Source of the DNA: a virus
Direction: 5' to 3' (one strand)
IMG/VR virus record: IMGVR_UViG_3300006923_000126
Coordinates: 1 to 23,908 of that record
DNA: 23,908 nt
Each line of letters starts with the position of its first letter. The first letter of the stretch is position 1. Below are positions 4,888 to 16,209 of the stretch, one piece after another. The notes below the pieces were generated by a model, which made no database searches, was not told the DNA's origin, and worked only from the letters and a program-made list of their open reading frames with translations. A program made the translations under genes and the position numbers.

Positions 4888-6024
4888 TTACCCTAATAAC
4901 TTGTCTAAAGTTGGAATATTAGGTCGACCATTGCTAGTCTTGTTATACCCTCCTTTATTGCCTTTCATTCTTCTAGAAGCAGTTGGCTTACTTGATTTTA
5001 ATTTAGCCTTCAAACTTGCCGCTTGCTTTGTATTTACTTTGGCGCTTACTAACTTTGAAATATCAAGACCCTTATACATAAGGTACTCCATTGCTAATAT
5101 GGATTCTTGATCAAGTTTTTCTCTATCTATAAGTCGTTGGCTTCTCCCTTTGTTATCAACTGGTGTTGCCATCCAACTATAAAATTTCTTTTTGTCACTC
5201 TCAGGAATTGTAAAGTCTCTTAGTCTACCTTTATTAATGATAGTTCCAATCTGACCCCAAGTCTCTTGAGTCTGTCTTGCATTTTCTTGAGCTTGCTCTT
5301 GTTGCTTTTTTACTAAACTTTCTTTTTCTTTGATCTGATGAGCTGCTAATTTTTTAACTGCTCTTTCTGAATTTTTGAGTAAAAGTCCAGCATCTTCATA
5401 GTCTTGAATTGTTTCTGAAATTTCCTCTGGCTCAAATCCTTGCATTTGCATAAAGTTTTCTACCACCTTACGTTGCATTCCTTTGTCTTCTTTGTTTAAT
5501 TGCAGCTTTCCAAAATCTATTTCTTTTGCTGCTACTTTAAAGAACTTATCTGGATCTCCACCAGATATTCTGTAATTTAAATATTCCTGAATATCAGGAA
5601 ATGATTGAAACACAGATGCAAATTGCTCTTCTGCAATTTTTTCTGCCATAGCCTTTGTTAAATTAGCTATGCCGTCGTAGTCATCTGCAAACTCTCCTTC
5701 TATATCATATCCCATTCTTTCTTTTAATGTAGATATAATAGTTGCTTCTTCTTCAGTTTCTTCTTCTTCAGTTTCTTCTTCTAATGCATCTGCAGCTTCT
5801 TGCAAATCAACATCAAAATCTGAACCTCTTTTATCACCCTCTTGAATTTCTTCTGAGGCTTCATCTGTAGTTTCTTCAACTGTTTCATCAGTTGTAGGAG
5901 TTTTAGTTTCTACGTTTTCTGGTGTTTCTGATTCTTCTGTAGATTCTTCTGCTGGTGTTGGCTGATCATCTAAGAGTGCGCTAACACTAATCTTGGATAA
6001 ATCTAAATTGTCTTCTTTACTCAT
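4888..6024 (-). CDS. putative capsid scaffolding protein
   Basis: This 378-aa protein has a strongly polarised charge pattern. Residues 20-95 are mostly Glu, Asp and Thr and look disordered, residues 100-260 are helical and probably coiled coil (KEKESLVKKQQEQAQENA), and residues 340-365 are Lys/Arg/Ser-rich (SLKAKLKSSKP, SRRMKGNKGG). Scaffolding proteins of tailed phages often bind the inner capsid surface through a basic C-terminal helix and are otherwise helical and elongated. The gene sits between portal and major capsid genes, the classical scaffold position. No protease motif is visible, so proteolytic self-removal is not indicated. The identification rests on position, charge pattern and helix content; an internal core or cargo protein is the main alternative. 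Confidence 0.65.
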   Translation of the reverse strand: MSKEDNLDLSKISVSALLDDQPTPAEESTEESETPENVETKTPTTDETVEETTDEASEEIQEGDKRGSDFDVDLQEAADALEEETEEEETEEEATIISTLKERMGYDIEGEFADDYDGIANLTKAMAEKIAEEQFASVFQSFPDIQEYLNYRISGGDPDKFFKVAAKEIDFGKLQLNKEDKGMQRKVVENFMQMQGFEPEEISETIQDYEDAGLLLKNSERAVKKLAAHQIKEKESLVKKQQEQAQENARQTQETWGQIGTIINKGRLRDFTIPESDKKKFYSWMATPVDNKGRSQRLIDREKLDQESILAMEYLMYKGLDISKLVSAKVNTKQAASLKAKLKSSKPTASRRMKGNKGGYNKTSNGRPNIPTLDKLLG

Positions 6025-14771: not shown

Positions 14772-15044
14772 ATGGATTATGACAAAGCTGCTATTGAAGC
14801 TTTACGAAAAAAAGTAGAAGAGCTTCAAACAGAAAACGCATTGTTACTTAAATTTAACAATAGACAGATCGATAATATAATTGATTGGTTAAATGCTAAG
14901 GTTAGAGACAATTTCACTGATAATGATGTTTACGAAAGTGACATAAAAGAAGTGATAACTGAACTAAATAAATTACGCAATTATAACCATTTAATTACTA
15001 AACTAAATAAATTACGCAATTATAACTTAATTACTAACATTTAA
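14772..15044 (+). CDS. small coiled-coil protein with a duplicated C-terminus
   Basis: This 90-aa protein starts with a leucine-zipper-like helix (AIEALRKKVEELQTENALLL), has a central helix and a charged stretch, and ends in two near copies of KLNKLRNYN(H)LIT. The repeat exists at the DNA level as an in-frame tandem duplication, so the C-terminus is probably dispensable or tolerant. It starts two bases after the preceding stop. It may act as a dimer. No family is recognised. Confidence 0.65.
   Translation: MDYDKAAIEALRKKVEELQTENALLLKFNNRQIDNIIDWLNAKVRDNFTDNDVYESDIKEVITELNKLRNYNHLITKLNKLRNYNLITNI
14962..15036 (+). repeat. in-frame tandem duplication inside the coiled-coil gene
   Basis: The first unit is 39 bases (14962-15000) and the second 36 (15001-15036). 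The first 26 bases of each are identical; the second then lacks a CAT triplet before TTAATTACTA. Near identity implies a recent event. It adds 12 or 13 residues without breaking the frame. Confidence 0.85.
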
Positions 15045-15165: not shown

Positions 15166-15209
15166 GAAAATAACCGTCCTAATAACGGATCAAGTGATGA
15201 CCAACAATT

Positions 15210-15242
15210 AAGAGAGTAGATTAGGCTGCTCTCTTTCTTTTT
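15210..15242 (+). terminator. intrinsic terminator closing the 14554-15165 operon
   Basis: A 10-bp stem (AAGAGAGTAG with CTGCTCTCTT, one G-T pair) has a six-base loop and is followed by TCTTTTT. Directly after it, an exact 12-mer tandem TTTTTAAATCAA occurs twice (15238-15261) in the leader of the next gene. Confidence 0.85.
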
Positions 15243-15269
15243 AAATCAATTTTTAAATCAATAAATAAC

Positions 15270-15515
15270 ATGTTACAAACAATCAATGAAGACACCATTC
15301 TTCAAAATATTGAGGCAGGACGTTTCAGTGTTTTAAAATTGGATGAAGACCAGAGATACAATGATTTAATCAAAGTGTATCCTAAATCATGGCACTCACA
15401 AATTAAACAAGCATTTAGAATGCAGTGTAGTGATATGATAGAAGAATTAATTACATATTCTACAAACTTTAAGACATCATTTAACTTGTCTAAAAGTAAA
15501 AGAATATTTGGTTAA
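15270..15515 (+). CDS. hypothetical 81-aa early protein
   Basis: This 81-aa protein starts MLQTINEDTILQNIEAGRFS and contains a conserved-looking YNDLIKVYPKSWHSQIKQAF segment, then an acidic helix and a basic tail (SKSKRIFG). It appears helical throughout, with no membrane segment or metal-binding motif. It is a single gene between a terminator and a structured RNA region, and its leader contains the exact 12-mer tandem and an AATAAATAAC start context. No family is recognised; a small regulatory or host-directed protein is possible. Confidence 0.6.
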   Translation: MLQTINEDTILQNIEAGRFSVLKLDEDQRYNDLIKVYPKSWHSQIKQAFRMQCSDMIEELITYSTNFKTSFNLSKSKRIFG

Positions 15516-15528
15516 TATGTAAAATAAG

Positions 15529-15601
15529 TATAAATTGTAACTGTCTTACGGCAGATACTTTGGTTTATGGTTCTGCCTAAGATATTAGAACCGCAATTAT
15601 A
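15529..15601 (+). ncRNA. structured RNA element, possible pseudoknot, upstream of the SSB-like gene
   Basis: Stem 1 pairs CTTA-GGCAG (15545-15554, one bulged C) with CTGCCTAAG (15573-15581) around an 18-base loop. The last four loop bases GGTT (15569-15572) can pair with AACC (15589-15592), giving an H-type pseudoknot. As an alternative, GGTTCT (15569-15574) can pair with AGAACC (15587-15592), which excludes stem 1. An outer helix, TAT-AATTG (529-537, bulged A) with CAATTATA (594-601), encloses all. No T run follows, so it is not a simple terminator. It lies 20 bases before the next ATG. Confidence 0.5.
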
Positions 15602-15620
15602 ATACAATAAATTATCAATT

Positions 15621-16163
15621 ATGGTACGAGTACAATCAATTTCAGAAGTTTATCAAGACACAAACAAGAAGAACTTCAAAGTAGTAACGTTAGAATCACC
15701 TGGTTTCAGAGAAGTAGCTGATCCAATGACAGGTGAAATTATTTATGCATTAGCTGCACCTAAAGTCACAAAGAAATGTGTGTGGGAAGCATCTTATTTA
15801 GATGACACCAAGCACTACCTTTATGATGCGACCGCTGGTCAAGCCGTTTACGGTACAATTGTAACAGCTCAAACAGATGAGTATACAATTACTGGAAGCG
15901 ACGGTGTAGAGAGAACAGTTAGCACTTACACAGGTTTCGTTGACGGAACTAATGAAGATGCAAACTTTGAGTCTCTTATTAATTCAATGCTTAAATCAGC
16001 TGGACGTGAACTTCCAGAGAATGCTATTCCAAAGCAAGAGATTGCTAAGGAACACATTGCTGCTAATAAAGCAGGCGAACAAATCGACATGGTTAATCAA
16101 ATAGATGACTTAGCTAAAGTCTCTGCAGAAGAGGTAGCAAATGATCTTGAAGACCAGTTTTAA
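15621..16163 (+). CDS. putative single-stranded DNA-binding protein
   Basis: This 180-aa protein has a beta-rich first two thirds (RVQSISEVYQD, NFKVVTLESPGF, KHYLYDATAGQAVYGTIVTA, EYTITGSDGVERTVSTYTGF) and a helical linker, then an acidic tail ending EEVANDLEDQF. Phage and bacterial SSBs often have an OB-fold followed by a flexible acidic tail with a terminal Phe (E. coli SSB ends DDDIPF, T7 gp2.5 ends in Phe), which binds partner proteins. The layout, early position and nearby PolA fit an SSB. The OB-fold is not proven by eye, and the gene at 23677 is a competing candidate. A structured RNA precedes it and a strong terminator follows, so expression seems tightly defined and probably high. 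Confidence 0.5.
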   Translation: MVRVQSISEVYQDTNKKNFKVVTLESPGFREVADPMTGEIIYALAAPKVTKKCVWEASYLDDTKHYLYDATAGQAVYGTIVTAQTDEYTITGSDGVERTVSTYTGFVDGTNEDANFESLINSMLKSAGRELPENAIPKQEIAKEHIAANKAGEQIDMVNQIDDLAKVSAEEVANDLEDQF

Positions 16164-16173
16164 TTAATTAATT

Positions 16174-16209
16174 AGAGGGATATCACATAGTGTGGTGTCT
16201 CTCTTTTTT
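16174..16209 (+). terminator. strong terminator after the SSB-like gene
   Basis: A 14-bp stem with some G-T pairs (AGAGGGATATCACA with TGTGGTGTCTCTCT) closes a TAG loop and is followed by TTTTT. It starts 10 bases after the stop codon. Confidence 0.85.

Follow-up and report, generated by a model that had tools for sequence, protein, structure and literature searches.

A compact H-type pseudoknot (15558-15592) is predicted ahead of a gene for a protein resembling single-stranded DNA-binding proteins (SSBs) in a 23,908-nucleotide stretch of viral DNA, the whole of which is termed the window. As shown by covariation among related phages, two helices are conserved over large evolutionary distance in a constant position upstream of a single gene in the replication cluster, and the pseudoknot structure is well supported by these sequence comparisons. 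By analogy with gene 32 of phage T4, we favor, at a probability of about 0.55, the reading that the pseudoknot and the A/U-rich linker behind it form a translational operator of the SSB-like gene, through which surplus SSB would shut off further synthesis in the manner of gp32. Such an operator would probably be autogenous.

The region examined (15529-15601) lies between a small gene and the 180-codon SSB-like gene, and the two genes form a unit bracketed by terminator-like hairpins (Table 1). No terminator was found between the pseudoknot and the SSB-like gene. As terminators flank the unit and none lies between its two genes, the second gene probably carries the element in its transcribed leader. 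The pseudoknot is not followed by a U-tract on its 3' side and is therefore not a terminator. The phage terminase is approximately 39% identical to those of Flavobacterium phage FpV4 and gut crAss-like phages, and the window phage is therefore classed, on sequence, as crAss-like. A direct repeat (aactaaataaattacgcaattataac, 14960-15036) was also observed at the end of the ORF at 14772-15044.

Table 1. Coordinates of the pseudoknot, its linker and the surrounding features in the window.
Feature	Position	Strand	Remarks
Terminator-like hairpin ahead of the two-gene unit	15210-15235	+	
Small upstream gene	15270-15515	+	ORF; in L004 and L039 a homologue also lies ahead of the SSB gene
Competing upstream strand (stem 1 of the first-pass annotation)	15543-15555	+	Pairs with 15572-15583; conserved in nearest relatives only
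S1 5' strand, CUUUGG	15558-15563	+	Pairs with 15576-15581, one U-U mismatch; equivalent helix covaries in distant relatives
Loop 1, UUUAU	15564-15568	+	From sequence; varies among relatives, in most of them 2-5 nt
S2 5' arm, GGUUCU	15569-15574	+	100% paired in close relatives
Loop 2, G	15575		
S1 3' strand, CCUAAG, inside the S2 loop	15576-15581	+	Invariant in close relatives; CC-containing in nearly all distant ones
Loop 3, AUAUU, A/U-rich	15582-15586	+	In relatives 4-7 nt, for the most part A/U-rich
S2 3' arm, AGAACC	15587-15592	+	100% paired in close relatives; AGGACC in L002 and L003 keeps a G-U pair
A+U-rich linker from pseudoknot to start codon	15593-15620	+	28 nt, 86% A+T
SSB-like gene, predicted OB fold, C-terminal tip EDQF	15621-16163	+	AlphaFold2, Foldseek, VIA-align
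Terminator-like hairpin 3' of the SSB gene	16174-16204	+	

The pseudoknot is built from S2 (GGUUCU/AGAACC) and from S1, in which the CCUAAG of the S2 loop pairs with an upstream CUUUGG. It is the strongest pseudoknot ahead of any ORF of the window, and its own p is only about 0.01. S1 is weak in the window clade, where it contains a U-U mismatch or, in another register, G-U pairs, and the energy model makes a nested alternative more stable than the pseudoknot in this clade. Because S1 is imperfect here, the pseudoknot in the window itself is proposed partly by analogy with relatives.

The first-pass annotation had described a pseudoknot-capable RNA before the SSB-like gene, with a 9-bp bulged stem, an enclosing outer helix (AATTG/CAATT), a GGTT/AACC pairing and an alternative stem that excludes the first. 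All of these pairings can be drawn within 15529-15601. The general idea of a leader pseudoknot near an SSB-like gene in a crAss-like phage holds, at a distance of 28 nt to the start codon; the choice of the pairings that matter does not. The alternative stem, which contains the GGTT/AACC pairing, corresponds to S2, the core of the conserved pseudoknot, and the second helix (the loop CCUAAG with the upstream CUUUGG) had been overlooked. The bulged stem (15543-15555/15572-15583) is the nested minimum-energy hairpin of the window, in a region (15500-15640) whose fold is unexceptional (z = -1.26; 21 of 200 shuffles fold equally well). In the five closest leaders, 83% of its cells are paired versus 80% in shuffles; an inner pair is lost in three of them (L002-L004), and in L004 it is broken by a change of GGCAGA to ACAGA. 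The outer helix carries an unmatched C in L002, L003 and L005. As both helices are lost in L004 and unseen in distant clades, they were rejected as the conserved core. The bulged stem, which is limited to the nearest relatives, overlaps S1 and S2 and might compete with the pseudoknot.

Five IMG/VR contigs encode the window protein at 91-100% identity. Four share a common leader, while the upstream sequence of the fifth, L004, differs; despite its replaced flanks, L004 retains TTTGG, GGTTCTGCCTAAG and AGAACC exactly. TTTGG is invariant in all five, in which S2 is fully paired with a single change, to G-U, and S1 is paired except at the U-U mismatch common to them all and, for L004, at the outermost pair as well. 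The pairs barely vary among these close relatives, which alone therefore prove nothing about structure. In L004, but not in the other close relatives, the small gene is followed, ahead of the pseudoknot, by a short ORF (2819-2935) encoding a lipoprotein-like signal (MKRVLVILILSLVLGACG...).

More distant leaders were taken from 59 contigs found by a scan with a piece of the window DNA polymerase, and extra ones (e.g. L097) from a further scan with the SSB-like protein family; all leaders derive from metagenomic contigs. The same architecture recurs, in different sequences, in phages whose polA is only 55-65% identical. Examples are AUGGU guu GGGGAC u ACCAU caagu GUCCCC (L044), AAUGGC guaa GGUGAC g GCCAUU aaca GUCACC (L089), UGGUU aa GAGGAC AACCA ucaaua GUCCUC (L042), AAGGU uaa GGAGAC u GCCUU uuaauuu GUCUCC (L039) and GAGGU caac(g) GUUACU ACCUC uuucaa AGUAGC (L097). 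S1 spans mostly 4-6 bp, loop 1 mostly 2-5 nt, S2 5-7 bp, loop 2 0-2 nt and loop 3 4-7 nt; loops of these lengths pose no steric problem for an H-type pseudoknot. The 3' end of the pseudoknot lies 21-32 nt before the start codon across relatives (42 in L071), and their linkers are 74-96% A+T. In other clades the upstream gene is replaced while this spacing stays nearly constant, and the element therefore belongs to the downstream gene.

Presence of the pseudoknot is patchy. It is lacking in L108-L115, which have mostly unstructured, often A-rich leaders (with other possible hairpins in L110 and L111), and in L054, L060, L066, L070, L072, L077 and L081; L082 retains the S2 hairpin alone. Several other structures were noted in these contigs. 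Ahead of the gene of the second protein family (described below) in L054, L066, L070, L072 and L077, another conserved hairpin (GCAC-loop of 12-GUGC, e.g. GCACAAUGUUAUAACCGUGC) replaces the pseudoknot. Upstream of the SSB-like gene in L104, L105 and L107 there are a GGUGCAGUAUUGCACC hairpin and a GGGUUG..CAACC hairpin, with a loop (ACGC/ACGU) pairable with UGCGU further upstream; read by eye, this leader may be a version of the conserved pseudoknot in which loop 1 has gained a hairpin. In L053, L057 and L059, an unrelated small gene (ORF at 5098, 7796 and 10018) has a compact H-type pseudoknot candidate (GUGGC ua GAGAGU GCCAC gaaa ACUCUC) approximately 40 nt ahead of it, and a similar one precedes the ORF at 9186 in L045. 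Finally, a conserved, pseudoknot-capable noncoding element (GGGGAGUUCCCGCACACUCUCUUACUCAGUGCGGG in L066) is found at L066:1406-1440, L070:813-847, L077:1220-1254 and L054:500-534, followed by a T-run (a terminator-like stretch) and a shared GACCTTYAC.

Enrichment was assessed with a pseudoknot descriptor of fixed geometry and free sequence, with leaders scored against dinucleotide shuffles at a threshold of p<=0.02. The descriptor was shaped after some leaders had been seen and carries no sequence content. Pseudoknots were found in 13 of 24 target leader clusters from both of the protein families described below, versus 22 of 385 clusters of other ORFs (odds ratio 19.5, Fisher p = 1.7e-9). One control leader, L102, is actually a target copy, so the test is slightly conservative. 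The generic descriptor matches 192 places in 1.25 Mb of strand and is therefore too unspecific on its own for genome annotation.

Covariation was measured in a structure-guided alignment of 14 sequences, with loops N-padded so that MAFFT leaves no gaps. In this alignment, which was fitted to the structure and includes only pseudoknot-bearing members, 94.9% of cells pair versus 59% in shuffles, and the covariation score is 0.831 versus 0.201 shuffled and at most 0.170 slid. The first-pass annotation had proposed compensatory changes in relatives as a check, and the corrected structure has them: 10 of 12 pairs are changed on both sides. All five innermost S2 pairs occur as 3-4 pair types across clades, and when S2 arms are exchanged between clades, pairing falls from 100% to 52%.

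The window protein and its family have no PHROG or Pfam match. A first structure prediction from five near-identical sequences reached a pLDDT of 37; AlphaFold2 with 22 divergent homologues modelled the core (residues 1-130) at approximately pLDDT 86. Bacterial SSBs rank first in Foldseek, with the top 24 chains all SSBs (best probability 1.00, E 3.7e-3). Over residues 1-78, VIA-align scores PriB and SSB at Z 4.2-5.5; its list consists mainly of SSB/PriB-like folds, with OB or barrel folds scattered among them, all with middling Z, and is not decisive alone. Matches to titin in PDB profiles were put down to sequence composition. A short acidic tip ending in a hydrophobic residue is present in the window clade and the L039 clade (EDQF) and in L104, L106 and L107 (EDAAF-like), and is absent in several distant members of the family. 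The 15621 protein is thus reasonably supported as SSB-like by modelling, with a fold closest to the SSB/PriB OB fold at modest scores, and is a putative DNA-binding protein.

The pseudoknot precedes two protein families, both near polA: the SSB/PriB-like OB-fold proteins and a second family that includes L042, L044 and L058 (alignment A6). No known relative of the second family was found, and no similarity between the families is detectable (hhalign probability 0.4%). They are mutually exclusive, with 31 loci carrying one, 30 the other and none both, although some of these records overlap. Among loci containing a polA match, both are upstream of polA, and members without the pseudoknot occur in both. 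DNA and protein searches of phage isolates found neither protein in cultured relatives at the sensitivity of those searches, and a scan of genome contigs found no relative.

The element was also compared with known signals. No tRNA was found in the window region, and no Rfam 15 covariance model matched the window or 12 relatives at gathering score, so a tRNA-like element or known RNA family was rejected. This covariance-model search, also suggested by the first-pass annotation, thus yielded no family above cut-off, known riboswitches included. The annotation's further suggestion of a metabolite sensor or small RNA accords neither with this result nor with the fixed position before replication genes. 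The best sub-threshold score at the locus was that of the cyanobacterial ribosomal protein S1 leader (RF03151), at 17.2 bits versus a cut-off of 39.9 (E = 1.9); this score is at chance level, and the alignment involves the non-conserved stem, where several of the model's pairs go unmatched. The preQ1-I and SAM-II riboswitches are likewise compact H-type pseudoknots shortly upstream of a start codon. Unlike these, the present element has replication genes downstream and no conserved ligand-pocket sequence, as its stems are freely exchanged between clades. The STAXI motif (RF01728) is a pseudoknot found near SSB and other DNA-handling genes (PMC2864571). It differs in being a tandem array of two or more pseudoknots (usually three), frequently with UUCG loops, and belongs to Enterobacteriales, whereas the present element occurs as a single copy at a fixed distance before one gene; the STAXI model gave no match to E = 5 in window 15200-15900.

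Other sources of conservation were considered and rejected. A coding ORF ending GGTTCTGCCTAA is a frame without a proper start and does not occur in L004, and a Bacteroidetes-type -7/-33 promoter box at TACTTTGG is not upheld in L004. For a frameshift signal there is no common arrangement: in the window the upstream gene stops short of the element, and in L039 its end falls inside it.

The closest parallel is with gene 32. To our knowledge, the regulation of an SSB by itself by way of a leader pseudoknot is a textbook case whose known examples come essentially from T4-like phages. The gene 32 leader consists of a pseudoknot, an A/U-rich, less structured stretch and the start codon; in T4 and RB69 the pseudoknot nucleates gp32 binding and more monomers spread over the A/U-rich ribosome-binding region, and some relatives carry the operator pseudoknot whereas RB49 apparently lacks it (PMC535899). 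The window phage and its relatives share this layout before an SSB-like gene, as well as the patchy presence. They differ from T4 in phage order and presumed host, and PHROG and Pfam searches found no gp32 homologue here, the predicted fold resembling bacterial SSB/PriB instead. In addition, the linker is shorter (21-32 nt, 42 in L071, versus more than 40 in T4), and a second, dissimilar protein family also carries the pseudoknot; repression is inferred here. Of the UUAAA/UAAA units of the T4-type A/U-rich stretch, the window linker has one UAAA, and many leaders in these phages are A/U-rich and of low complexity.

According to the operator reading, SSB present in excess of the available single-stranded phage DNA would bind the pseudoknot. 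It would then cooperatively coat the 28-nt A/U-rich strand across the ribosome entry site, and SSB synthesis would remain off until replication exposes more DNA. Both the control of translation by the pseudoknot and autoregulation by the 15621 protein are suggested by the gene 32 parallel. The recurrence of the pseudoknot in divergent clades with unrelated stem sequences speaks for this operator, as do the enrichment, the covariation, the OB-fold product, the acidic tips, the bracketing terminators and the T4/RB69-like layout. Against it stand the weak S1 and more stable nested alternative in the window clade, the pseudoknot-free members, the linker shorter than in T4 and the second family: the same pseudoknot before two families without detectable similarity fits self-recognition by one family poorly, unless both are SSBs.

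This last point leaves room for a common trans-factor, such that a cis-acting translational element, for example for ribosome standby or timing, is read by the host ribosome, a ribosomal protein or another phage protein. A common factor is the simplest account of an element shared by two families that replace each other, and both have similar GG/CC-containing S1 helices (AAGGU/ACCUU in L058; AAGGU/GCCUU in L039). We nonetheless consider this account rather unlikely given the fixed association with an SSB in one family, SSB being the textbook self-regulating phage gene. Moreover, the proteins of the second family could themselves be SSBs that have diverged, and operators of the gp32 type are tolerant of sequence change (PMC535899). 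An mRNA processing or stability element, marking or blocking nuclease action where the small gene gives way to the SSB gene and setting their differential expression, would suit a position between two genes of one terminator-bounded unit and the lack of a U-tract; it is improbable in view of the nearly constant start-codon spacing and the replaced upstream gene. Folded single-stranded DNA has been considered for STAXI (PMC2864571), and the present element adjoins replication genes, so that a folded single strand for priming, or a protein-binding inverted repeat, might lie at the gene start by chance. This is very improbable: S1 pairs with a loop, a duplex inverted repeat leaves the S1 covariation unexplained, and the position relative to one gene's start codon is constant. 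Least probable are chance pairings from searching A/T-rich leaders. Given the number of descriptor matches and the window's own p, a single example proves little, but chance would not account for the enrichment or for the variety of pair types in S2 across clades.

The best reading is therefore of an element that would work like the T4 gene 32 operator without homology to it, having arisen separately. More tentatively, and at somewhat less than even odds, this class of pseudoknot may have stayed before the polA-near gene while the gene itself was swapped for one of a dissimilar family. The RNA operator would then be older than the protein, both proteins or one common trans-factor would read its shape rather than its sequence, and control through an SSB operator would be separate from that of T4. 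A covarying pseudoknot before SSB-like genes of uncultured crAss-like phages suggests either repeated origins of this strategy or a distribution far wider than assumed. As the pseudoknot is absent from Rfam, it would constitute a new RNA family with predictable stems, and the second protein family is pointed to as a candidate SSB. The system would also allow the question of how a single-stranded DNA-binding protein that is indifferent to sequence selects its own message to be addressed in an unrelated case.
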